Positions 1 to 11,472 of a DNA stretch of 64,000 nt are shown in pieces (position 1 is the first letter of the stretch; every line of letters begins with the position of its first letter). A program made the position numbers and the translations under genes. The notes under the pieces are model-generated. The model did not search any database. It was not told the origin of the DNA and saw only the letters and a list, made by a program, of their open reading frames with translations. The stretch is from Skermanella mucosa (GTDB lineage: Bacteria; Pseudomonadota; Alphaproteobacteria; Azospirillales; Azospirillaceae). The stretch spans positions 5,478,501 to 5,542,500 of the forward strand of contig NZ_CP086106.1 in assembly GCF_016765655.2 (NCBI RefSeq), written 5' to 3'.

Positions 1-25
1 TTGAACTCCATGCTGGCATTCGCCT

Positions 26-50
26 TTATATTATGTTTCTCTTATATAAT
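26..50. promoter_or_regulatory. AT-rich dyad operator/promoter before the soxS-like gene
   Basis: TTATAT and ATATAA form a perfect 6-bp inverted repeat with a 12-bp spacer, inside the longer pattern TTATAT-N11-TATATAAT. The right arm contains a consensus -10 hexamer (TATAAT, 45-50), about 40 bp before the start codon at 90. The same pattern with the same spacing recurs at 7513-7537 before soxE. Sox clusters are commonly controlled by ArsR-type SoxR repressors that bind AT-rich dyads, so an operator overlapping the promoter is inferred; no soxR gene is in the window. Confidence 0.55.
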
Positions 51-89
51 CCAGCATCAATGACCGGCCACAAGGAATAGGGAGCCGCC

Positions 90-440
90 ATGATCGCCCG
101 CGTCCTGAGCCTCCTCGCCTTCCTCTCGCTCCCCTTCGGCCCGTCGCTCGCCGCCGAGCTGGTGATGTTCGAAGCGGAAGGCTGTGCCTGGTGCGCGGCC
201 TGGGACCGGCAGATCGGCCCCGTCTACCCGCTGACCGACGAGGGCCGGCGGGCGCCGCTGCGCCGCGTCGACCTTCATGGTCCGCGGCCGGACGACCTCG
301 GGCGGATCACGGGGGTCGTCCATACGCCGACCTTCGTCCTGACCGAGGACGGGCGCGAGATCGGCCGCATCCGGGGCTACCCGGGCGAGGATTTCTTCTG
401 GGCCATGCTGGGCGACCTGATCCGCAAGCTGGATCCCTGA
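90..440 (+). CDS. periplasmic thioredoxin-like protein, SoxS/SoxW type
   Basis: A 116-residue secreted thiol-disulfide protein. Residues 1-22 form a hydrophobic Sec signal ending in an Ala-rich cleavage site. The mature part opens with a beta strand and a CAWC redox motif (C32, C35), followed by a HTPTF segment with the cis-proline expected of a thioredoxin fold and a glycine-rich C-terminal strand (GRIRGYPG). In sox clusters such proteins keep Sox carriers reduced in the periplasm, so that role is inferred from context. A GGGAGCC ribosome site precedes the ATG. It is the first gene of a plus-strand pair that converges on the minus-strand soxEF-CD operon. Which sox thioredoxin (S or W) it corresponds to is not certain. 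Confidence 0.75.
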   Translation: MIARVLSLLAFLSLPFGPSLAAELVMFEAEGCAWCAAWDRQIGPVYPLTDEGRRAPLRRVDLHGPRPDDLGRITGVVHTPTFVLTEDGREIGRIRGYPGEDFFWAMLGDLIRKLDP

Positions 441-494
441 TCCGGCACCAACCGGGCCGGACAGGCCCACCGATCCCACAAGGAAGGAAACACC

Positions 495-1001
495 ATGAAG
501 AAGCGCATCACTCTTGCCGCGGCCCTGCTGTTCGGCATCGCCGTTTCCCCCGCGCAGCCCCGGGCCGAGGGCGAGGCCCTCGTCACGTTCCGCAGCCTCA
601 GCCCCGCGGCGGCGCTCGATCTCGCGCGGGCGGTCCTGGACAGCTGCCACCACAAGGGATTCCAGGTGGCCGTGGCGGTCGTCGACCGGTTCGGGACGCC
701 GCAGGTCATGCTGCGCGACCAGTTCGCCGGTCCGCACACGCCGGACACCGCGACGGCCAAGGCCTGGACGGCGATCAGCTTCCGCTCTGACACCCTGAAG
801 CTGGCGGCGTCCACCGCGGGCGACCAGGCCCAGTCGGGCGCCCGCTTCATCGCCGGCGCGGTCATGCTGGGCGGCGGGCTCCCGGTCGAAGCCGGCGGAT
901 CGATCGTCGGCGGCGTCGGCGTGTCCGGCGGCCCGTCGGGCGAGGCGGACGACGCCTGCGCGCGCACCGGGATCGCCGCGATCGAGGACAAGCTGTTCTG
1001 A
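495..1001 (+). CDS. secreted GlcG/HbpS-family haem-binding protein
   Basis: A 168-residue protein with a signal peptide (about residues 1-25, KKR start, hydrophobic core, cleavage near AEG). The rest matches the GlcG/HbpS (DUF336) fold: an N-terminal helix with LDLARAVLDSC, a VAVAVVDRFG strand, a TATAKAWTAISF helix and the glycine-rich tail GGSIVGGVGVSGG typical of the family. Relatives bind haem or small ligands in the periplasm. AAGGAAGG lies just before the ATG. It follows the thioredoxin gene by 54 bp, so the two are probably co-transcribed. Its place beside c-type cytochrome genes suggests haem handling or sensing, but that is inference. Confidence 0.75.
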   Translation: MKKRITLAAALLFGIAVSPAQPRAEGEALVTFRSLSPAAALDLARAVLDSCHHKGFQVAVAVVDRFGTPQVMLRDQFAGPHTPDTATAKAWTAISFRSDTLKLAASTAGDQAQSGARFIAGAVMLGGGLPVEAGGSIVGGVGVSGGPSGEADDACARTGIAAIEDKLF

Positions 1002-1033
1002 CCGCGGCAGCGGGACCGCACCCCCGGGGCGCC

Positions 1034-1504
1034 TCATGGCCGGACATAGACCCAGCCGGCCAGCTGGCGCTCCACGATCTCGGCCACGCCGGCGGTCACC
1101 ACCTCGACCCCGGGGATCAGGTCGGCGGGGGTGCGGTTCTGGGTCTTCATGGTGTTGGCGCAGCCGATGAAGGCGACGCCGTACCGCATCAGGCTGCGGA
1201 CCCGTTCCGCCACCGGCGAGACGTCGGCGTAGAGCGCCTGCATGCCGGCGCCGAAGGCGACGATCACCACCTCGGCATTGTCCTGGCCGTAGAAGTCCTG
1301 GACGTTCACCGCATTGTAGAAAAGGTTATTGATATCCTTCTCGTCCGAGCTGGTGAGTTGCAGCAGCAGCCGGCGGGGAGCCTCCGGGCTCGGCTCCGGG
1401 CTGGCCAGCACGGTGTCGGCCGACGCCGGGGAATGCCCCGCGCCGCCGAAAGCCGCCCCGGCCAGGACCAGGGCTGCCGCCAGGCGCCTGACCGCCGGAC
1501 CCAT
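1034..1504 (-). CDS. periplasmic DsrE-family protein
   Basis: A 156-residue protein with an N-terminal signal sequence (RRLAAALVLAGAAFGGAG). The core reads LLLQLTSSDEKDINNLFYNA, then EVVIVAFGAGMQALY and a conserved cysteine in FIGCANT, which is the DsrE/DsrF-like alpha/beta fold used in sulfur-relay and sulfur-oxidation proteins. The start at 1504 overlaps the soxD stop as TGATG, arguing for translational coupling and for this start over longer ones. It is the last gene of the minus-strand sox operon. Likely a persulfide-handling accessory of the Sox pathway; the exact job is unknown. Confidence 0.75.
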   Translation of the reverse strand: MGPAVRRLAAALVLAGAAFGGAGHSPASADTVLASPEPSPEAPRRLLLQLTSSDEKDINNLFYNAVNVQDFYGQDNAEVVIVAFGAGMQALYADVSPVAERVRSLMRYGVAFIGCANTMKTQNRTPADLIPGVEVVTAGVAEIVERQLAGWVYVRP

Positions 1505-2172
1505 CACTTGCCCGCCGGCGCGATGTCGGGCGTGATGTTGGCGTCCACCGCGCGGGCGGTGATCCTGACCGGCTCGCCCTTGCGGCAGTCCTTCATGCAC
1601 GGCTCACCGGCGGGGACGTCCGGACGGGGGTCCTCTTCCAGGAAGCCGTCCCGGTTGGGCATCCTGATCGACACCAGCTTGGCGGCGTCCAGCGTCTCGT
1701 CCTGGCCCAGCAGGTCGTTCAAGTAGAGGATGTAGGCGACGATGCCGTAGGTCTCGTCCGCGGTCAGGCTGTGGGCCTGGCCGAACGGCATCGAGGTGTA
1801 GATGTAGCTGAAGACGCCCGGCGCGTAGGGCCAGAAGCTGCCCACCGTGCGCACCGGGTCGGCCGTGGCCAGCGTGTCGAAGCCCCCGGCCAGCGGCAGG
1901 TAGCGGGTGCCCTCGCCGAAGTCGCCGTGGCAGACGGCGCATTTTTCCGAGAAAACCTCCTCGCCGTCGGTGGCGTTGCCGCTTCCGGCGGGCAGGCCCA
2001 GCCCGTCCTCCGCCCGGACGGTCCGGTTCCAGCCGGCGACCTCCTCCGGGGTGACCGGGCGGCCGAAGCCGTAGCGCTCGCCGGCCGAGGCGGCGCCGGA
2101 CAGCAGGGTCGCGGCGAGCAGGCCGCCCAGCAGGACGGAGCGACTTTTCGCTTTCTCAGGAAATCTGGACAT
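1504..2172 (-). CDS. soxD: SoxD, cytochrome c subunit of sulfane dehydrogenase
   Basis: A 222-residue periplasmic cytochrome c, partner of the molybdoenzyme SoxC in the Sox(CD)2 complex, which removes six electrons from the SoxY-bound sulfane sulfur. It has a signal peptide (residues about 1-30, SVLLGGLLAATLLSGAASAG), one haem site CAVCH followed by GDFGEGTRYLPLAGG, and a probable axial Met in SMPFGQAHS. Some SoxD proteins are larger and di-haem; this one has only one CxxCH (the later CMKDC is not a haem site). The start overlaps the soxC stop by 17 bp and has a GAGGTCGAGA leader. Confidence 0.88.
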   Translation of the reverse strand: MSRFPEKAKSRSVLLGGLLAATLLSGAASAGERYGFGRPVTPEEVAGWNRTVRAEDGLGLPAGSGNATDGEEVFSEKCAVCHGDFGEGTRYLPLAGGFDTLATADPVRTVGSFWPYAPGVFSYIYTSMPFGQAHSLTADETYGIVAYILYLNDLLGQDETLDAAKLVSIRMPNRDGFLEEDPRPDVPAGEPCMKDCRKGEPVRITARAVDANITPDIAPAGK

Positions 2173-3493
2173 TCTCGACCTCGCCGCCGGGCAGGACATG
2201 CCACGTGTAGATGCTGTTCTTGTGGTAGATGCTGTTGGTGCCCCGGACCGCGCGGAGCTGCGGCAGCGAGGGCTGGACATACCCGGTCTCGTCGATCGCC
2301 CGGCATTGCAGGAAGGCGTCCTTGCCGTCCCAGGTCCACGGGATCTCGAACCGGGTCAGGCACTTGGACAGCACCGGCTCGTTCAGCCGGGCGGGCGTCC
2401 AGGTGTTGCCGCCGTCGGCCGAGAAGTCCACCCGGCGGATCTTGCCCCGGCCGCTCCAGGCCAGGCCCGACACGTGGTACAGGCCCGGCCCCTGGCGTAT
2501 CGGCTTTTCAGGGCAGGGGAAGGTGATGACCGAGTTGGCCTCCTGCATGAAGGTGAACTTGCGCGCCTTGCCGTCCGCCATCAGGTCGGTGTAGCGCGAC
2601 GTCTCCTCCCGGCTGTGCCAGGGCTTGTCGCCGACCTCCAGCCGGCGCAGCCACTTGACGCTCATGTTCCCCTCGTAGCCGGGCAGGAACAGGCGGATCG
2701 GATAGCCCTGCTCGCGCCGCAGCCGCTCGCCGTTCTGGCCCCAGGCGACCAGCGCGTCGTCCAGCGCCTTGTCCATCGGGATCGAGCGGTGGTTGCCGGC
2801 GGCGTCGGCGCCCTCGGCCAGGATCCACTTGGCCCCGGGCTTCACGCCGCACTCGTCGAGCAGGACCGAGAGCGGCACGCCGGTCCATTCGCAGCAATGG
2901 ATCATGCCGTGGGTGTATTGCAGGCGCGTCATCTGCGCGCCCTTCCACTCCATCCCGCCGTTGGCCGGGCACTCCAGGAAATGGATGCGGCTGACCGAGG
3001 GGAAGCGGGTGATGTCGTCCATGGTGAAGATCATCGGCCGGTCGACCATGCCGTGGATCATCAGCCGGTGCTCGTCCGGGTTGATGTCGGCGCAACCGCC
3101 GTGGTGGCGCTCGAAGCATACGCCGTTGGGCGTGATGATGCCGGACAGGTCGGCCAGCGGCGTGAAGCTGATCGAGGCGATGCGGTCCGCCGTCAGCCAG
3201 TCGACGTTGCGCCGGACCACGTTCGCCTCGTAGGGCGACGGCATGCCATAGGGGTATTCGACCACCCCGTAGCCGGCCGTGGTCGTCCAGGGCGGATTGT
3301 TGGGCGGCAGGTTCGCCGGATCGGCCGGGCCGGCCAGCGCCGGGCGGGAGGTTCCCGACAGCAGCGCCGGCGCCGCCGCGAGGCCGGCGGTCCCGCCCGC
3401 GACCTTGCGCAGGAAGGAGCGGCGCGACGGGCTCTCCCCGGGCCGGACGGCCGTCGGGGTGCGCGGAGGGGCAGTTTCGTCTTGGTCGTTCAT
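2156..3493 (-). CDS. soxC: SoxC, molybdopterin subunit of sulfane dehydrogenase
   Basis: A 445-residue periplasmic molybdenum enzyme of the sulfite oxidase family. A twin-arginine signal (SRRSFLRKVAGG) exports it folded with its cofactor. The Mo-binding domain carries the cysteine ligand in HFLECPANGGMEW, and residues such as HHGGCADINPDEH and LPGYEGNMSVKWLRRLEV match SoxC. The C-terminal half is the dimerisation domain (FSADGGNTWTPARL). The chosen ATG has an AGGGAG site 6-7 bases upstream; an in-frame ATG at 3526, overlapping the previous stop as ATGA, is an alternative and would only lengthen the export signal. Followed directly by soxD. Confidence 0.93.
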   Translation of the reverse strand: MNDQDETAPPRTPTAVRPGESPSRRSFLRKVAGGTAGLAAAPALLSGTSRPALAGPADPANLPPNNPPWTTTAGYGVVEYPYGMPSPYEANVVRRNVDWLTADRIASISFTPLADLSGIITPNGVCFERHHGGCADINPDEHRLMIHGMVDRPMIFTMDDITRFPSVSRIHFLECPANGGMEWKGAQMTRLQYTHGMIHCCEWTGVPLSVLLDECGVKPGAKWILAEGADAAGNHRSIPMDKALDDALVAWGQNGERLRREQGYPIRLFLPGYEGNMSVKWLRRLEVGDKPWHSREETSRYTDLMADGKARKFTFMQEANSVITFPCPEKPIRQGPGLYHVSGLAWSGRGKIRRVDFSADGGNTWTPARLNEPVLSKCLTRFEIPWTWDGKDAFLQCRAIDETGYVQPSLPQLRAVRGTNSIYHKNSIYTWHVLPGGEVENVQIS

Positions 3494-3522
3494 GGTGCGC
3501 TCCCTGGAGTCGTTCCGCGGGT

Positions 3523-4827
3523 TCATTTCTTGGCGGGCAGGGTCTGGGCGTAGGCCAGGATGCTGCCGATGGTTTCCGCCGGCATCGCGCGGAGCGGCGG
3601 CATGGTGTCTCCGGGATGGCCGTTGTAGACGCTGTGCAGCGATCGCCACGGGTCCGACGCGACCATCCGGCCGAGCGGCGGCATGGTCCGGACGGCGCGG
3701 CCGTCCTTGCCGTGGCAGGTGGCGCAGATGGTTTGGAAGAAGGGTTCGCCGGCGGCGGCGTCGCCCTTGAACCGACGCTCCGCACCGTCGATGAAGGCCG
3801 CCATGTCCACCTGCCCCTGCGTCACGAAGCGCGCCAGGTCGGTGAGGTCGCGGACCGACAGCAGGCCGCCGAACTGGTGGACCTGGTCCGACAGCGCCGC
3901 CGCCACGGCGGCCGGGTCTGTCCCCTCCAGGTTCCGCAGCCCGGCGATGCCGTCGCGCCCGCGATAGTCCCAGCCGTGGCACTCGACGCAGCGCCAGGTG
4001 GATTGCGGGCGAAGTCCCTCGTCCTTGGCCGCCCGGGCGGCCGGGAACGAGGGGTGCAGCCCCGCCGGCGGCGTCCGGCCGTTCTCCTTGAACCAGTTGT
4101 CGTAGAGCCGGCCGCCGCGGACCAGCGAGGCGGTCGGGTCGCGCTGGGGAAGGGTCTGGAGATAGGCCAGCGTGTCGGTCAGGACGGCCCGGTCCAGCGC
4201 CCGAAGCGCCGACATGCTGCCGTTGGGATGGCCGTTCATCATGCTGTGCAGGGCGTGCCAGGGCTGGTCGCGGCCAAGCTCGCCCAGCGGCGGCATGCTT
4301 TCGACCTGGAGCCCGTCGGCACCATGGCAGTTGGCGCAGATCGTCTGGAAATAGACGGCGCCCCGGGCCGGCTCGCCCCGGGCCCTGAGGGTCGCAGGAT
4401 CGATGTGGTCCGTCATGGCGACCTGGCCGCCGGTAACGAAATTGGCGAGGTCCTGGATGTCCTCCGCGTCGAGCAGCGCGCCGTAGCCATGGGACGGGTG
4501 GCGCAGCAGCGCCGCGACCGCCGCCGGGTCGCCGCCCTGGAAGGCGCCGAGGCCCCTGGCGGTCCCGCCCGAGGCGCCGTCGGCGCCGCGGTAATCCCAG
4601 CCGTGGCAGTCCACGCAGCGCCCGGAACCGGTCCCGGCGGCGCCCTCGGCCCGCTCCTTGCCGAGATGGGAGATCCGGCGCTCGTGCTCGCCGGTCTCCA
4701 CGTGCCAGTTGTCGTAGAGCCGGCCGCCCCGCGCGATCGAGGACAGGACCTCCTCCGCGCCGGCCGGGAGGGCCGCGAGAAGCGCCGCCAGGATCAGGAC
4801 GGCCGGAGCGATGATGCGGACGGGCAT
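3523..4827 (-). CDS. tetra-haem c-type cytochrome made of two duplicated di-haem modules
   Basis: A 434-residue secreted cytochrome. After a signal peptide (about 1-24) the protein contains two copies of one module of roughly 200 residues. Each copy starts with GGRLYDNW, then a first haem site (CVDCHGWDYRG; CVECHGWDYRG), GxDPAAVAA, a second site (FQTICANCHG; FQTICATCHG), MPPLG, PW..LHS..NGHP and ends near LAYLQTLP / LAYAQTLP. That makes four CxxCH haems. The order of genes (NapC-type cytochrome upstream, soxC downstream) suggests it carries electrons between the membrane tetra-haem protein and Sox enzymes; this is inference. I do not recognise a named family for the whole protein. Its stop overlaps an upstream in-frame ATG of soxC. 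Confidence 0.85.
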   Translation of the reverse strand: MPVRIIAPAVLILAALLAALPAGAEEVLSSIARGGRLYDNWHVETGEHERRISHLGKERAEGAAGTGSGRCVDCHGWDYRGADGASGGTARGLGAFQGGDPAAVAALLRHPSHGYGALLDAEDIQDLANFVTGGQVAMTDHIDPATLRARGEPARGAVYFQTICANCHGADGLQVESMPPLGELGRDQPWHALHSMMNGHPNGSMSALRALDRAVLTDTLAYLQTLPQRDPTASLVRGGRLYDNWFKENGRTPPAGLHPSFPAARAAKDEGLRPQSTWRCVECHGWDYRGRDGIAGLRNLEGTDPAAVAAALSDQVHQFGGLLSVRDLTDLARFVTQGQVDMAAFIDGAERRFKGDAAAGEPFFQTICATCHGKDGRAVRTMPPLGRMVASDPWRSLHSVYNGHPGDTMPPLRAMPAETIGSILAYAQTLPAKK

Positions 4828-4850
4828 GCTTGCCTCCAGTCGTGCCGGAC

Positions 4851-5423
4851 TCACTTGGGGTCGTATCCGGCGGGCAGCTCGTGGACGATGCCCTTGTGGC
4901 AGTCGATGCAATGCTTGCCTTCCTGCATCGCCACGGGGTGCCGGACCTTGGCCCGCCGCCCCTGCTCGCCCAGGTTCATGGCGTCGAAGGCGTGGCAGTT
5001 CCGGCACTCGCGCGACTGGGTGCTTTCCATGCGCGCCCAGACGCGGGTCGCCATCTCCAGCCGGTGGGCCTCGAACTTCTCGGGCGTGTCGATGGTGCCC
5101 AGCAGGTGATGCCAGACATCCTTGACGGCCACGACCTTGGCGACCAGCTTGGGGCCGAACTCCTTGGGGACGTGGCAGTCCTCGCACTCCGCCCGGACGC
5201 CGGTGCGGTTGGTGAAATGGATGCTCTTGCGGTACTCGGCATAGGTCCCGGTCTCCATCTCGTGGCACGAGATGCAGAACTCCATGCGGTTGGTGTATTC
5301 GGCGAAGACGGTGAACCCGCCGAGGAACACGACCGCGGCGGCCACGCCCGAGAAGATCAGGACCATCCCGCCGCCGAAGACGGGCCACGGGCGCGCAAGC
5401 CGATTCCAGAGACGGCCGAACAT
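4851..5423 (-). CDS. NapC/NirT-family membrane-anchored tetra-haem cytochrome
   Basis: A 190-residue protein with one N-terminal membrane anchor (about residues 15-40, GGGMVLIFSGVAAAVVFLGG) and four CxxCH haem sites: CISCHEM, CEDCHVP, CRNCHAF and CIDCHKG. The layout, the NRMEFCISCHEM start and the HPVAMQEGKHCIDCHKGIVH end are those of NapC/NirT quinol dehydrogenases, which pass electrons between the quinone pool and periplasmic carriers. It sits between soxF and the duplicated di-haem cytochrome gene in the same operon, so it may connect Sox reactions to the quinone pool. That direction of electron flow is not shown by the sequence. Confidence 0.88.
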   Translation of the reverse strand: MFGRLWNRLARPWPVFGGGMVLIFSGVAAAVVFLGGFTVFAEYTNRMEFCISCHEMETGTYAEYRKSIHFTNRTGVRAECEDCHVPKEFGPKLVAKVVAVKDVWHHLLGTIDTPEKFEAHRLEMATRVWARMESTQSRECRNCHAFDAMNLGEQGRRAKVRHPVAMQEGKHCIDCHKGIVHELPAGYDPK

Positions 5424-5494
5424 GGGGAATTCTCCGGTTCAGGGGAGTGCCCGCCGATCCCTTCGGCGCGAAGCTTCCGGGCGGCGGGACGGGC

Positions 5495-6799
5495 TCAGCC
5501 CCAGGCGTCGTGGCGGATATTGTCGAACCAGCTGTAGGCGTACATCAGCTCCCGCCGGCGGTCCTCGGCCGACGCGCCGAGCGGCGAGATGCCGCCGGCA
5601 TCCGGCAGTTCGACGATCTTGTTGTCGGCCGCGCTGTAGCCGTAGACCCCCGCGATCGAGAAGCAGTGGTCCGTGCCGGCCACGGAATAGCAGGTGTTGA
5701 TGTAGGACGGCTTCGGCGGCTCCTGCCCCTTCAGCGCGGAGACCACCGCCGCGGCGGCGACCTTGGCCTGGGAATTGGCGCCGTAGGCCGACTTGGGCAT
5801 GGTCGCCGCGTCGGCGGCGTCGCCCATGACGTAGACCCCGGGGAGCTTCTTCGCCTCGAAGGTCCCCTTGTTGACCGGAACCCAAGCTCCCTCGGTCAGG
5901 CCGGCATCGACCGCGATCCGGCCAGCGCCCTGCGGCGGGATCACGTTGACCACGTCGCCCTTGAAGGTCCCCGCTTCAGCCGTCACCGTCATGGTGCCCG
6001 GATCGACCTTCAGCACCTTGCCGCCCTCCTTGAGGGGGACCCAGGTGATCATGCTGTCGGCCGTGCCGAAGCCGTAGAACTTCTCCCAGGCCTCCTTGAA
6101 CAGCGGCTGCTTGGAGAAGGCGTCCTTGGCGTCGAGGATGATGACCTTCGACTTGGGCTTGTGGTGCTTGAAATAGTTGGCGATCAGGCTGGCGCGCTCG
6201 TACGGGCCGGGCGGGCAGCGGAACGGGTTGGCCGGGGCGACCATGACGAAGGTGCCGCCGTCGGGCATGGCTTCGAGCTGGCGGCGCAGCAGCGCGGTCT
6301 GCGCCCCTGCCTTCCAGGCGTGCGGCATCTTCTCCGCCGCCTCGACGCCGTAGCCTTCGAGGCCGGCATAGTTCAGCTCGATCCCCGGCGCCACGACGCA
6401 GCGGTCGAAGCCGAAGGTCTGGCCGCCCTTGGTGGTCACGGTCCTGGCCGTGCCGTCGACGCCGGTCACCAGGTCGTGGACCACGGCGATGCCGTGCTTC
6501 TTCAGCCCGTCATAGCCGATCGCCAGGCTCTCCAGCTTGCGCTCGCCGCCGATCACCTCGTTGCTCATGAAGCAGGTGTGGTACTGGGGGTTGGCCTCGA
6601 TCAGCGTGACCTCGACCGAGGGGTCGAAATGCTTCAGGTATTTGGCGGCGGTGGCTCCGGCCGGCCCGCCGCCGACCACGACCACCTTGGGTCCGGCGGC
6701 GCGGGCGATGCGGGGCATCGCGACCACGCCGGCCGCGGCGGCTCCCGCGAGGTTAAGGGCCGCGAGCTTCAGGAAGGTCCGGCGTCCGGTGTTCTGCAT
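5495..6799 (-). CDS. soxF: SoxF / FccB, flavoprotein of flavocytochrome c sulfide dehydrogenase
   Basis: A 434-residue periplasmic FAD protein. A twin-arginine-like signal ([12 protein letters not shown]) precedes the FAD-binding motif [17 protein letters not shown]. Cysteines that form the redox disulfide in this family are seen in [10 protein letters not shown] and [15 protein letters not shown] second dinucleotide region ends in [19 protein letters not shown], the FAD-ribityl contact. The C-terminal flavocytochrome c domain begins near [21 protein letters not shown]. It oxidises sulfide (or polysulfide) and passes electrons to the di-haem SoxE encoded just upstream (11-bp gap). Start chosen before the Tat motif; a longer reading frame has no support. 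Confidence 0.9.
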
Positions 6800-6810
6800 G
6801 GCGGCGGCCC

Positions 6811-7413
6811 TCACTTCACGCTGGCATAGTAATGGAGGATCGCGTCGAACGCGTCCCGGCCCTGGTCGGCGAGCAATGCGTCGAACTTCTGCTTCTGGCG
6901 CTTTTCCATCGCGCGCCGGCCGGACAGGAAGTCGGTCACCGAGAACTGCATGTAGGGCAGCCGCTGCCCGGCGAGCACGCCGACGCCCTCGCCGACCTTG
7001 CCCTCCTCCTCGTGGCAGGATTCGCAGTATTTCTTCGCCAGCCCCTTGCCGGCATCGACCTTGGCCTGATCGACGGCCTGTCCGGGCCGGTCGAACGGCT
7101 TGCCCTCGAAATACTCGGCCAGCTTGTCGATCTGGGCGTCGCTGTAGCCCTTGGCGATCCGCCCCATGACGGTGGAGGGCCGCGTCTCGGTCTTGTAGGC
7201 GATCATGCTGTCGACGAAGTATTCCGGCGACAGGCTGGCGATCGTGGGAGTCGCGATACCGATGCTGCTGCCGTCGGTTCCGTGGCACGCCGCGCAGGAC
7301 ACGGCGAGCAGTTCGGTCTCCAGATCCGCCAGCGCCGGCGCCGACCACAGGATCGCGCCGAGCAGGAGGGCGGACCCCAGGCGGCGGCTTGGGATTGATG
7401 GCCTCACGAGCAT
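6811..7413 (-). CDS. soxE: SoxE / FccA-like di-haem cytochrome c
   Basis: A 200-residue secreted cytochrome, first gene of the minus-strand sox operon. After a signal peptide (about residues 1-29, ending APALA) there are two haem domains with CAACHGTDG and CESCHEEEG. The protein has the spacing and motifs of the FccA/SoxE subunit ([23 protein letters not shown] in domain one; [16 protein letters not shown] in domain two), which accepts electrons from the flavin of SoxF. It is preceded by the AT-rich dyad around 7513-7537, about 100 bp upstream of the start codon. Confidence 0.87.
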
Positions 7414-7512
7414 GTCCTGGGAACCTCCCCGTTCCGTTTCGTTGGTCCGGACGGATGCTCCGCTGGCCGTGAAGCTGTCGCCTTCGCCTGAACGGCCGCC
7501 CGAATGGACGCC

Positions 7513-7537
7513 TTATATCAGGCTCTGCGTATATAAT
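7513..7537. promoter_or_regulatory. AT-rich dyad operator/promoter before soxE
   Basis: TTATAT and ATATAA form a perfect 6-bp inverted repeat separated by 12 bp, the same as at 26-50, including the CGCCT run on the left side and the full right arm TATATAAT. Read on the minus strand, the left arm gives TATAAG as a possible -10 for the soxE operon. Identical spacing before both sox transcription units points to a shared regulator. The rest of the 7414-7638 spacer shows no gene. Confidence 0.55.
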
Positions 7538-7638
7538 GGATTCAGAATGTAAGGAAGCGCACGGATGCGGCGTAAAAATGATCCAGATCAATTCCGTTGG
7601 GAAATTGGAGACCCTCCACTCCGCAACCGGAGCGGGCG

Positions 7639-8886
7639 CTACAGCCTGACCCCGTAGAACTCCAGCTGCCAGGTCATCTCGACCGGGGTCAACGGATAGT
7701 CCACGCCGTTGCGGGCGTTCAGCAGCATGCGCGGCGGAATATTGGCGGCGCGCGATTGGAGCTGCATGGCGCAGCGCATGCTGAGGCCGGCCCGCCAAGC
7801 CAGCGCGGTGACGCCCTTGGGGCTCTGCGCCGCGATGATCTCCTCGACCAGGGACGGCGCGATGCCGGCCATCAGCGCCAGGCCCAGCTTGACGAACACC
7901 ATGTCGTTCCACGACAGCGCGTCGCTGATGGCGCTCTCGTCGAGCTGGCCGACCGCGAAGAGCCGCCGGACGCGGTGCTCCGGGGACTCGCCGTCGGACC
8001 GCTGGTCCAGATAGTCGATCCTACGGCGGGCGACGCTGACCACCTCGGCCGCGGTCTCGCCGTCCAGGTCGCGGCGCTGGCGCAGGATGGTCAGCACGTG
8101 CTGGTCGACGAACTCGGCGAGCCGGACCGCAAGCCGGCCGGGCAGCCTGGGGCGCTTCGCCAGAGGCTCCTGCCACGACGGGCGGGCTGTCGACTGCTCG
8201 ACCATGCCGGACAGGGTATGCTCGGGAATCAGGGCGCCGTGATTGTCGAGCAGCGCGGTCGACGCGGGGATGTCGCCCGTCTCGTACAGGGCCGCCGCGA
8301 CCGGACCGGAGACGCCGTCGCGCTGGGCGATGGCGCTGAGCACCCAGGATTTCGGCTGATTGGCGATGATGCTCAGCAGATCCTGGTCGGTCAGCGTGGC
8401 GCAGTAATGCAGGATCGGCTCGGCAACCCCCCGCTCGACGTCGCGGGCCAGATGCGCGCAAAGGTCGGGCGGCGCACAGGCGACGTCCTTGAGGCTGGAC
8501 GCCAGCGCCTGCCGGACGCCGACCGCCTGGTCGCGCGCCAACTGCTCCAGCGTCCGCACCGTCAGCTGGAAAAGTTGGCCCTGGGCCTCGCGCGAGAGGT
8601 CGGGCAGCAGTCGGGCCAGCTTGTCCGCCAGCAGGCGGCGCACGCTCTCGTCGCTGTCGCGGGCCAGCACCGCGCTGGCCTGCGCCGGTGCCGACCGGTT
8701 GGCCGCCACTTCGCGGCGCACTTCGACCGCGGGATCGATCGCGAGGTAATAGAGCAGTTCCGGCCTGACATCCTCGCGCCCGGCGACCTGGGCGCGGACG
8801 GCGGTGTCCTCGCTCTGGGCCATGCGCTTCGAGGTCTCGTAATCGAGCTGGCCGTCGGGTGGCGGTTTCTGCTCTCTGCTGGGCAC
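7639..8886 (-). CDS. DUF2336 protein (HEAT-like repeats)
   Basis: A 415-residue cytoplasmic protein built of short alpha-helical repeats: [55 protein letters not shown] and [17 protein letters not shown] recur with HEAT-like spacing in the first 170 residues. This is the pattern of the DUF2336 family, common in alphaproteobacteria and of unknown function, in which some members are linked to two-component or stress signalling. No signal peptide or membrane segment is visible. A second DUF2336 gene lies 1.4 kb away at 10300-11472 on the opposite strand. Monocistronic as far as can be seen. Confidence 0.8.
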
Positions 8887-9823: not shown

Positions 9824-10299
9824 GGCAATCTCCTGGATGCGCTGCGGAAGCCGGACGTCACACGGACCCGGGCCATTCCTAAGAGGGGTTACACCATCGT
9901 GAGTATAACCCGCACGGGAGGGATAAAGCCATACCCATCAGGCTGCGGCACCATCGCCTTTCAGCGCCCTGAAAAACGTTCGGCGCCCTATTCTCCAGCG
10001 TTCGGCGGGTTCGAGGCAAATCGTTTAAAATGCTGACAATTCCGGAATCGAGACACGGGTGGGGTGATCGCGGACCGCCGGATTAACATTTTACTAAGGA
10101 AGATTCCGCATGCTCGTCACGCTGCGAAGTCAGCGGGAACACGGTTCCGATCCAATGACCGGCCGACCAGAAGGGTCGCGAAGATGAAGTGTTTGGTTTT
10201 GGTTTCCCAGGCAATGCCGGCCGAGCGGAGGGTCCTTCCCGTGCCGCACCGCGAGGGCGGCCGGAGAATCTTCCGGGGCCGTCCCGGCGGAGGACGCCG
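9824..10299. other. intergenic region, divergent promoters
   Basis: A 476-bp spacer between the small minus-strand gene and the plus-strand DUF2336 gene. It contains an inverted repeat GGGTTA (9886-9891) / TAACCC (9906-9911) upstream of the small gene, and an AT-rich stretch at 10081-10106 (GATTAACATTTTACTAAGG) that could hold the promoter of the DUF2336 gene. Reading frames crossing it have atypical composition and no ribosome sites; no gene is called. Confidence 0.5.
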
Positions 10300-11472
10300 A
10301 TGAACGGCGGCACGGTGGAACCGGGATCGGAAACGGGAACAGGCGGCGGTACAATGGCGCATCTGGCCGATCTGTTCGAGATGGCACGGGACAGGAGCCA
10401 GACCGGACGGCGGGCTCTGGCCGACAAGGTCGGCGATTTCTATTTCGCGGGGCACAGCCTTTCCGACCGCGAGCGCGCCCTGGTGATCGATATCCTCCGC
10501 CAGGTTCTGCGCGACGCGGAGATGGACGTCCGGCGGTCGCTCGCCGAACGGCTGGCGCCCCACGCCGAGGCACCCCGGGACCTGATCGTGACCCTGGCGA
10601 ACGACCAGATCGAGATAGCCCGGCCGATCCTGATGCGCAGCGAGGTGCTCGAGGACGAGGACCTGATCGCCGTCGTACGCGCCCACGCGGAGGCCCACCA
10701 GCTCGCCGTCGCCGGCCGGCCCAGGATCAGCGCGGCGGTCAGCGACGTCCTGATCGAAACCGGCAACACGCGCGTCGCCGAGACGCTGCTGGGCAACTTG
10801 GGCGCCAGCCTGTCCGGACAGGCGATGATCCGCCTGACCAATGTCGCCCGCCGGGTGCCGCCCCTGCGGTCGCCGCTGCTGGGCAGACCCGAGCTGACGC
10901 CGGAACTGGCGACGAAGATCTACTGGCTCGTCTCCCAGGAGCTGCGGCGGACTATCCTCGACCGATTTCCGATCCCGAGGGCGCAGCTCGACGCGGCGCT
11001 CCAGGCGACGCTCCAGGATCTGATCGACGGGACCCGCGGGCGGACCAGCCTGACCGCCGACCAGCTGGAAACGGTCGAACGGATGGCCGAAGCCGGCGCC
11101 ATCACGCCGCAGGTCCTGATCCAGACGCTGCGGCTCGGCCAGATCGACCTGTTCAAGGCGCTGTTCGGCCGGATCGCCGGCCTGGGTCCGGAGGCCATGC
11201 ACCAGCTGATCGCCGAGACCGGCGGCGAAGCCATGACCCTGGCCTGCCGGGCGCTGAGGATCGACAAGGGATTCTTCGCCTCGATCTTCCTGCTGAGCCG
11301 CGCGGCCCGGCCGGGCGAGCAGATCGTCGATCCGCGCGAGCTGTCGCGGGTGCTGGCGCTCTACGACCGCCTGACGCCGGAAACGGCGCTGCCGATCCTC
11401 CAGGGCTGGCGCCAGAATCCGGCCGCCATCAACCTGGTCCCGCTGCGCCGCCGCGAGCGCCCGGACGCCTGA
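10300..11472 (+). CDS. DUF2336 protein, second copy
   Basis: A 390-residue helical protein. The repeats FYFAGHSLSDRERALVIDIL, DVRRSLAERLAPHAEAPRDL and IARPILMRSEVLEDEDLIAV, followed by IAVAGRP-like LAVAGRPRISAAVSDVLIETGN, are the classical DUF2336 core. The chosen ATG has GGAGG seven bases upstream; a longer frame beginning at 10189 lacks a site and has a basic non-family leader. It is only distantly similar to the DUF2336 gene at 7639-8886, so the two look like old paralogues. Function unknown. Confidence 0.82.
   Translation: MNGGTVEPGSETGTGGGTMAHLADLFEMARDRSQTGRRALADKVGDFYFAGHSLSDRERALVIDILRQVLRDAEMDVRRSLAERLAPHAEAPRDLIVTLANDQIEIARPILMRSEVLEDEDLIAVVRAHAEAHQLAVAGRPRISAAVSDVLIETGNTRVAETLLGNLGASLSGQAMIRLTNVARRVPPLRSPLLGRPELTPELATKIYWLVSQELRRTILDRFPIPRAQLDAALQATLQDLIDGTRGRTSLTADQLETVERMAEAGAITPQVLIQTLRLGQIDLFKALFGRIAGLGPEAMHQLIAETGGEAMTLACRALRIDKGFFASIFLLSRAARPGEQIVDPRELSRVLALYDRLTPETALPILQGWRQNPAAINLVPLRRRERPDA

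Follow-up and report, generated by a model that had tools for sequence, protein, structure and literature searches.

The window analysed here is a stretch of 64,000 nucleotides from Skermanella mucosa (contig NZ_CP086106.1, positions 5,478,501 to 5,542,500). Near its start, seven co-directional genes follow one another on the minus strand in the order SoxE(FccA)-SoxF(FccB)-NapC-Cyt4h-SoxC-SoxD-DsrE-like. The gaps are 11 bases between SoxE and SoxF, 71 between SoxF and NapC, 23 between NapC and Cyt4h and 29 between Cyt4h and SoxC, while SoxC and SoxD overlap by 17 bases and SoxD and the DsrE-like gene by 1 base. A search of the minus strand over positions 1-8000 turned up no terminator-like site, and the seven genes from fccA to the DsrE-like gene apparently form one operon. 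One codon-position GC pattern is common to all operon genes, and the third-position GC of the NapC-like and Cyt4h genes (0.93 and 0.92, respectively) is as in their neighbours. The initial annotation had placed a tetra-haem NapC/NirT protein and a secreted four-haem protein between soxEF and soxCD. This placement holds, with positions 3523-5423 containing exactly these two genes.

Downstream of the pair, soxC (2156..3493, minus strand) encodes the molybdenum subunit of sulfane dehydrogenase (NCBIfam equivalog TIGR04555, 651 bits against a cut-off of 420). Its cytochrome subunit, with one CXXCH, is encoded by soxD (1504..2172, minus strand), which was assigned from its cytochrome c domain and its place after soxC, an order that recurs in loci L018, L041, L047 and L124. 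The operon ends with a secreted DsrE-like protein (1034..1504, minus strand; PF02635, E 1.9e-6), whose relatives adjoin other sox clusters (L018, L041 and L047). The genes soxY, soxZ, soxB and ccdA lie just past the window start on the same strand; neither soxA nor soxX was found in the window cluster. Between the soxYZB and fccAB/soxCD blocks, small thioredoxin-like and GlcG-like secreted proteins are encoded on the opposite strand (90-1001, plus strand), and relatives of both are found next to the L135 sox cluster. Two further proteins, each ~420 aa long (7639-8886, minus strand, and 10189-11472, plus strand), look by eye like mutual paralogues and contain repeats of short helical segments.

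Gene products of the cassette

The gene fccA (6811..7413, minus strand; labelled soxE earlier) encodes the 200-aa dihaem cytochrome subunit of a flavocytochrome c sulfide dehydrogenase (FCSD). This protein (P0004) has CXXCH motifs at residues 40 and 130, and phmmer matched its residues 33-198 to 3vrd_A (E 9e-42) and 1fcd_C (E 9e-41). The FAD subunit, of 434 aa, is encoded by fccB (5495..6799, minus strand; labelled soxF earlier) and matches 1fcd_A over residues 35-434 (E 7.5e-152) as well as the Pfam families FCSD_central and FCSD-flav_bind. In the alignment, Cys76, Cys195 and Cys370 of FccB correspond to the FCSD cysteines of the YTC, FRCPPGP and NTCYS segments of 1fcd_A. The features by which an FCSD is recognized are present, namely a full-length FccB homologue with the predicted covalent-FAD and redox cysteines and a haem c subunit alongside. 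Judged by its sequence, the SoxEF of the window is really FccAB, of the dihaem Allochromatium type.

The napC-like gene (4851..5423, minus strand) encodes a membrane-anchored tetrahaem NapC/NirT protein of 190 aa, a predicted quinone oxidoreductase, with four CXXCH motifs at residues 50, 80, 140 and 172 and a strong match to Pfam Cytochrom_NNT (NapC/NirT, PF03264; E 7.6e-70). Its score falls below the curated cut-off of NCBIfam TIGR02161 napC_nirT (242.5 vs 310.6 bits), and thus it is a member of the family but not the canonical NapC of nitrate or nitrite reductase. That it might be the NapC of the nap operon is ruled out by the fact that nap has its own NapC at another locus. In an alignment with 17 relatives, which takes in this nap-operon NapC of the window genome, Met56 (CXXCHxM, haem 1) and Lys96 occur in 17/17, and position 102 is likewise acidic in all 17, being Asp in the 8 FCSD-linked NapCs and Glu in all others but one. 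Lys96 aligns with the quinol-site lysine of NrfH. The NapC-like protein keeps the family's pattern of haem-1 and quinone-site residues. A third NapC-type protein of the genome, of 388 aa, is encoded at L015 (G000:C1, ~5.617 Mb); its long C-terminal part contains one additional haem motif, and it adjoins a 333-aa secreted protein that by eye has the look of a dihaem peroxidase.

The last gene of the set, cyt4h (3523..4827, minus strand), encodes a secreted tetrahaem c-type cytochrome of 434 aa, with an N-terminus that by eye resembles a signal peptide and with CXXCH motifs at residues 71, 164, 280 and 368. The description of this protein as a duplicated di-haem cytochrome proved accurate, as its two dihaem halves align over 204 columns with 49% identity (E 2e-63) and reflect a tandem duplication of a dihaem unit. 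Together, the two proteins encode the eight additional haem sites that had been claimed for the pair. Across 38 homologues of Cyt4h there is no variation in the four CXXCH motifs, in His113 and His317 (38 and 33 residues past haem motifs 1 and 3, respectively) or in Met205 and Met409 (37 residues past haem motifs 2 and 4). Haems 1 and 3 are therefore predicted to be bis-His and haems 2 and 4 His/Met coordinated. The protein was modelled by AF2 with confidence (pLDDT 90.9), and in the model the domains of haem 2 and haem 4 are similar to widespread cytochrome c folds (Z 8 to 9.6). The fold search returned generic cytochrome c domains only, at residues 150-228 and 354-432, and barely covered the haem-1 and haem-3 domains. 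A search of a plasmid collection for Cyt4h gave no match. In an Azospirillum genome, a lone half-length dihaem relative of Cyt4h (L019, G033:C63, 7075-7719) may represent an ancestor-like single unit.

Conservation of the cassette and its relation to sox

The Cyt4h alignment was scanned against one genome per species (84,980 species), and the best 80 loci of a longer list were examined. Among these, fccA-fccB-napC-cyt4h occurs in the same order and on the same strand in at least 16 further alphaproteobacterial genomes (L020, L022-L027, L035, L038-L044 and L047), and thus in at least 17 with the window. The carriers include Azospirillum, Rhodospira, Roseospira, Magnetovibrio, Terasakiella, a MAG labelled Methylocystaceae and other alphaproteobacteria; contigs of A. 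halopraeferens and Azospirillum sp. TSO22-1, which belong to the same family as the window genome, were among the loci of the scan. Gene order in the high-GC loci L022, L023 and L025 rests on tblastn, ORF calls being mis-framed there, and the FccB of L027, missed by the neighbourhood tally of Cyt4h loci, is present by tblastn. No FccB was met near Cyt4h without NapC among the Cyt4h loci listed.

Each protein of the cassette forms a coherent group. The cassette FccBs are one clade (16 vs 32 others, support 99/95), as are the cassette NapCs (17 of 39 in the tree, SH-aLRT 100), and all cassette Cyt4h proteins fall inside one set of 19 rows (SH-aLRT 99), of which two rows were not scored as cassettes; one of these two is L021, whose contig ends inside napC just upstream. 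SoxF was found in 12 of 82 genomes of an order-level sample, at 15 places, and a full-length Cyt4h accompanies exactly those three places where the identity reaches 66% or higher. In a class sample of 289 genomes, SoxF is present in 58, and a full-length match to Cyt4h in the window genome only, while five others match Cyt4h over about half its length or in pieces. Based on the trees and the order and class samples, the cassette is a rare but coherent FCSD variant and not a chance insertion.

The type of FccA follows the same division. FccA occurs in one-haem and two-haem forms (PMC12010331), and it is dihaem in the window and in all 15 readable cassettes. The cytochrome encoded upstream of SoxF has one haem at 28 of 30 sampled alphaproteobacterial loci that lack the pair, the exceptions being L139 with a two-haem cytochrome and L143, where no cytochrome was found. 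Both kinds of FCSD are present in the window genome, which encodes the dihaem FccAB of the window and a one-haem SoxEF at L108. Sox genes lie at three separate places in this genome (7.84 Mb): a complete soxXYZABCD (L018, G000:C1, ~4.05 Mb), the cluster soxE-soxF-soxX-soxY-soxZ-soxA with the one-haem SoxE (L108, G000:C1, ~4.94 Mb), and the window cluster together with L013, comprising soxYZB, fccAB, napC, cyt4h and soxCD but no soxAX.

The cassette is seldom linked to soxCD. Within the best 80 loci, soxCD adjoins it in 3 of the 17 genomes only (the window, L041 and L047), and soxZ, with or without soxY, lies near it in L025, L026 and L027. The pair is thus found regularly outside sox clusters as far as soxCD is concerned (14/17 genomes, best 80 loci), but not without soxEF. 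It is not a regular part of sox clusters; clusters without it occur in L018, L124, L126, L135 and L139. In L124, from another family, soxYZB is accompanied by soxE-soxF-soxC-soxD with a one-haem SoxE and no gene between soxF and soxC; the window shares this arrangement, except that the cassette fills the space between these two genes. In a genus sample of five genomes, the SoxC copy of the window is in the window genome only. The cassettes of the window and of L041/L047 belong to different FccB subclades, and the union of the cassette with sox may therefore have arisen twice. As a core Sox component the pair is ruled out, its linkage being to fccAB and not to soxCD; on this linkage, it belongs with the FCSD, not with SoxCD and not with the entire Sox system. 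Five loci of the Magnetovibrio type have the cassette near Calvin-cycle genes, the neighbours in M. blakemorei being phosphoribulokinase, a LysR regulator, fructose bisphosphatase, transketolase and aldolase. Such surroundings would fit an electron-donor role in autotrophy.

The unnamed tetrahaem Cyt4h family ranges from Alphaproteobacteria to Chloroflexi. At 26 of 74 four-haem Cyt4h loci, a NapC is encoded within 1 kb on the same strand, and at 46 of the 74 there is a quinone-interacting module nearby, counted as NapC, NrfD, cytochrome b/Rieske or a nine-haem protein with a weak match to formate-dehydrogenase gamma (cytochrome b). The remaining 28, a point against the quinone route proposed below, have no recognized quinone module nearby, in a tally limited by contig ends and crude gene calling. 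Three genes, for a short dihaem relative, NapC and Cyt4h, stand together as a set without FCSD in beta- and gammaproteobacteria and one Hyphomicrobiales MAG (L046, L048, L050, L056, L070, L072, L075 and L091). In the Betaproteobacteria L057 and L058, homologues of NapC and Cyt4h lie near genes for an MtrB/PioB porin and DmsE-type decahaem cytochromes, a setting typical of extracellular electron transfer. Overall, Cyt4h seems to pair broadly with membrane modules that interact with quinones. Among the Chloroflexi, at L078, L085, L092 and L093 and at L081, L088, L094 and L099, the neighbours of the Cyt4h homologues are either cytochrome b/Rieske genes or those of a molybdenum enzyme that has FeS and NrfD subunits.

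Direction of electron flow

Sequence comparison establishes the parts, their order, their co-inheritance as a unit, the dihaem FccA and the conserved quinone-site residues, and suggests that this FCSD may feed the membrane quinone pool and not soluble cytochrome c alone. Because the NapC-like protein keeps the quinone-site residues and the pair is conserved in an apparent operon, a link to the quinone pool is the natural reading. The initial annotation had proposed such a link for the Sox pathway; the part that stands is the connection to SoxEF (FccAB), with the quinone-site residues kept, and not one to the Sox system in general. We consider it reasonably probable that the four genes from 7413 to 3523 on the minus strand, which lie within a sox cluster, encode an FCSD-based electron chain that leads from sulfide to quinone. 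FccB would oxidize sulfide, or bound sulfane or polysulfide, at its FAD and cysteine centre and pass the electrons to dihaem FccA, from which they would reach the soluble tetrahaem Cyt4h and then the membrane-anchored NapC-like protein, both through presumed contacts. The NapC-like protein, working in the presumed direction, would reduce ubiquinone. Electrons would then enter above the bc1 complex, instead of at cytochrome c only, and so could be used for proton pumping and for reverse electron flow to NAD+. In the window genome, Cyt4h may also be shared with SoxCD. A broader proposal, which we put forward more tentatively and hold to be somewhat short of probable, is that FccAB-Cyt4h-NapC is a complete second sulfide-to-quinone coupling besides SQR, in which a tetrahaem cytochrome with two putative bis-His and two putative His/Met haems bridges FCSD and NapC, and that members of the same family connect further periplasmic enzymes with NapC, NrfD or cytochrome b modules.

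The main rival is flow in the outward direction, in which NapC would oxidize ubiquinol and reduce a periplasmic acceptor through Cyt4h, with FccAB acting as a sulfur or polysulfide reductase, or merely sharing Cyt4h as a relay to an oxidase or nitrite reductase. It ranks as the chief alternative because the NapC/NirT proteins studied so far, ImoA included, oxidize quinol, which is the established direction for them (PMC9600427). ImoA of an iron oxidizer was proposed to be a quinone reductase, yet it oxidized quinol in vivo, where it took the place of CymA (PMC9600427). In addition, some Cyt4h relatives lie near a PhsA/ArrA-like molybdenum enzyme with NrfD, which could be reductases. Nevertheless, the surroundings of the cassette are those of sulfur oxidation or carbon fixation, FCSD is known as an oxidase, and no terminal reductase gene common to the cassette loci was found, all of which make outward flow rather unlikely.

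That the pair serves as the quinone outlet of the whole Sox multienzyme system, fed by SoxCD as well as SoxEF, would agree with its place in the same apparent operon as soxCD in the window, with the cassettes of L041 and L047 lying directly upstream of soxXYZABCD, and with a union with sox that may have occurred twice in different subclades. We regard this as improbable, because soxCD is so seldom linked to the cassette; moreover, complete sox clusters exist without the pair, including L018 in the same genome and L124 with its soxE-soxF-soxC-soxD. Cyt4h could also be a sulfur enzyme itself, for example a thiosulfate dehydrogenase like TsdBA, with NapC merely as its electron partner. TsdBA is indeed the top Foldseek match of the Cyt4h model (E 1e-5), but the two superpose poorly (TM 0.14, rmsd 20), the two segments found in the fold search resemble ordinary cytochrome c, and all eight cysteines of Cyt4h (P0002) sit in CXXCH motifs, so that the Cys haem ligand of TsdA is absent. 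A TsdA-like Cyt4h is ruled out by this cysteine count, which permits no axial Cys ligand, and any role of Cyt4h as a sulfur enzyme is very improbable.

Comparison with known systems

The electrons of FCSD enter at cytochrome c, which is the usual reason given for its energetic disadvantage. For sulfide-oxidizing chemolithotrophs, FCSD is regarded as energetically inferior to SQR (PMC10305379). If the proposed route from sulfide to quinone is true, this restriction would be removed by a relay devoted to a quinone reductase of the NapC type, and the retention of a dihaem FccAB next to sox or carbon-fixation genes in some bacteria would be accounted for. The route would also provide a clean case of a NapC/NirT protein working towards quinone reduction, a question raised for iron oxidizers (PMC9600427). 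In the open-access literature, most subscription journals lying outside the search, no description was found of FccAB encoded together with NapC and a tetrahaem cytochrome.

The FccAB proteins of A. vinosum (1FCD) and Thermochromatium tepidum (3VRD) share with that of the window both subunits over their length, the dihaem cytochrome and the same three FccB cysteines. The known FccAB is described as a soluble heterodimer, whereas in the window the FccAB genes form a fixed set with those for NapC and a tetrahaem cytochrome. Monohaem SoxEF (e.g., L108, L109 and L124; structure 5n1t) has a homologous flavoprotein (~50% identity) and adjoining sox genes, but its cytochrome subunit has one haem, NapC and Cyt4h do not accompany it, and it occupies a separate part of the FccB tree. 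With the quinol dehydrogenases NapC, NirT, NrfH, CymA and ImoA, the cassette NapC shares one transmembrane anchor, four haems and the conserved quinone-site lysine and acid, but it forms its own clade, and the sulfide oxidase encoded alongside it implies that electrons move towards quinone, against the direction tested in the family (PMC9600427). The Mto/Pio iron-oxidation conduits have the same proposed logic, from a periplasmic cytochrome through NapC to quinone, and MtrB/PioB and decahaem genes like theirs adjoin some Cyt4h homologues (L057 and L058); their donor is extracellular iron, whereas that of the cassette would be periplasmic sulfide. SQR (sulfide:quinone oxidoreductase) carries out the same overall reaction as the proposed model, sulfide in and quinol out. 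When one distant SQR profile was run against the window genome, it matched the two FCSDs first and then an NDH-2-like protein, which hints at the absence of SQR. SQR is a single membrane flavoprotein, while the cassette divides the task between a separate FCSD, a relay and NapC. The parts are thus known in kind, and what is new is their fixed combination, coherent as a clade.
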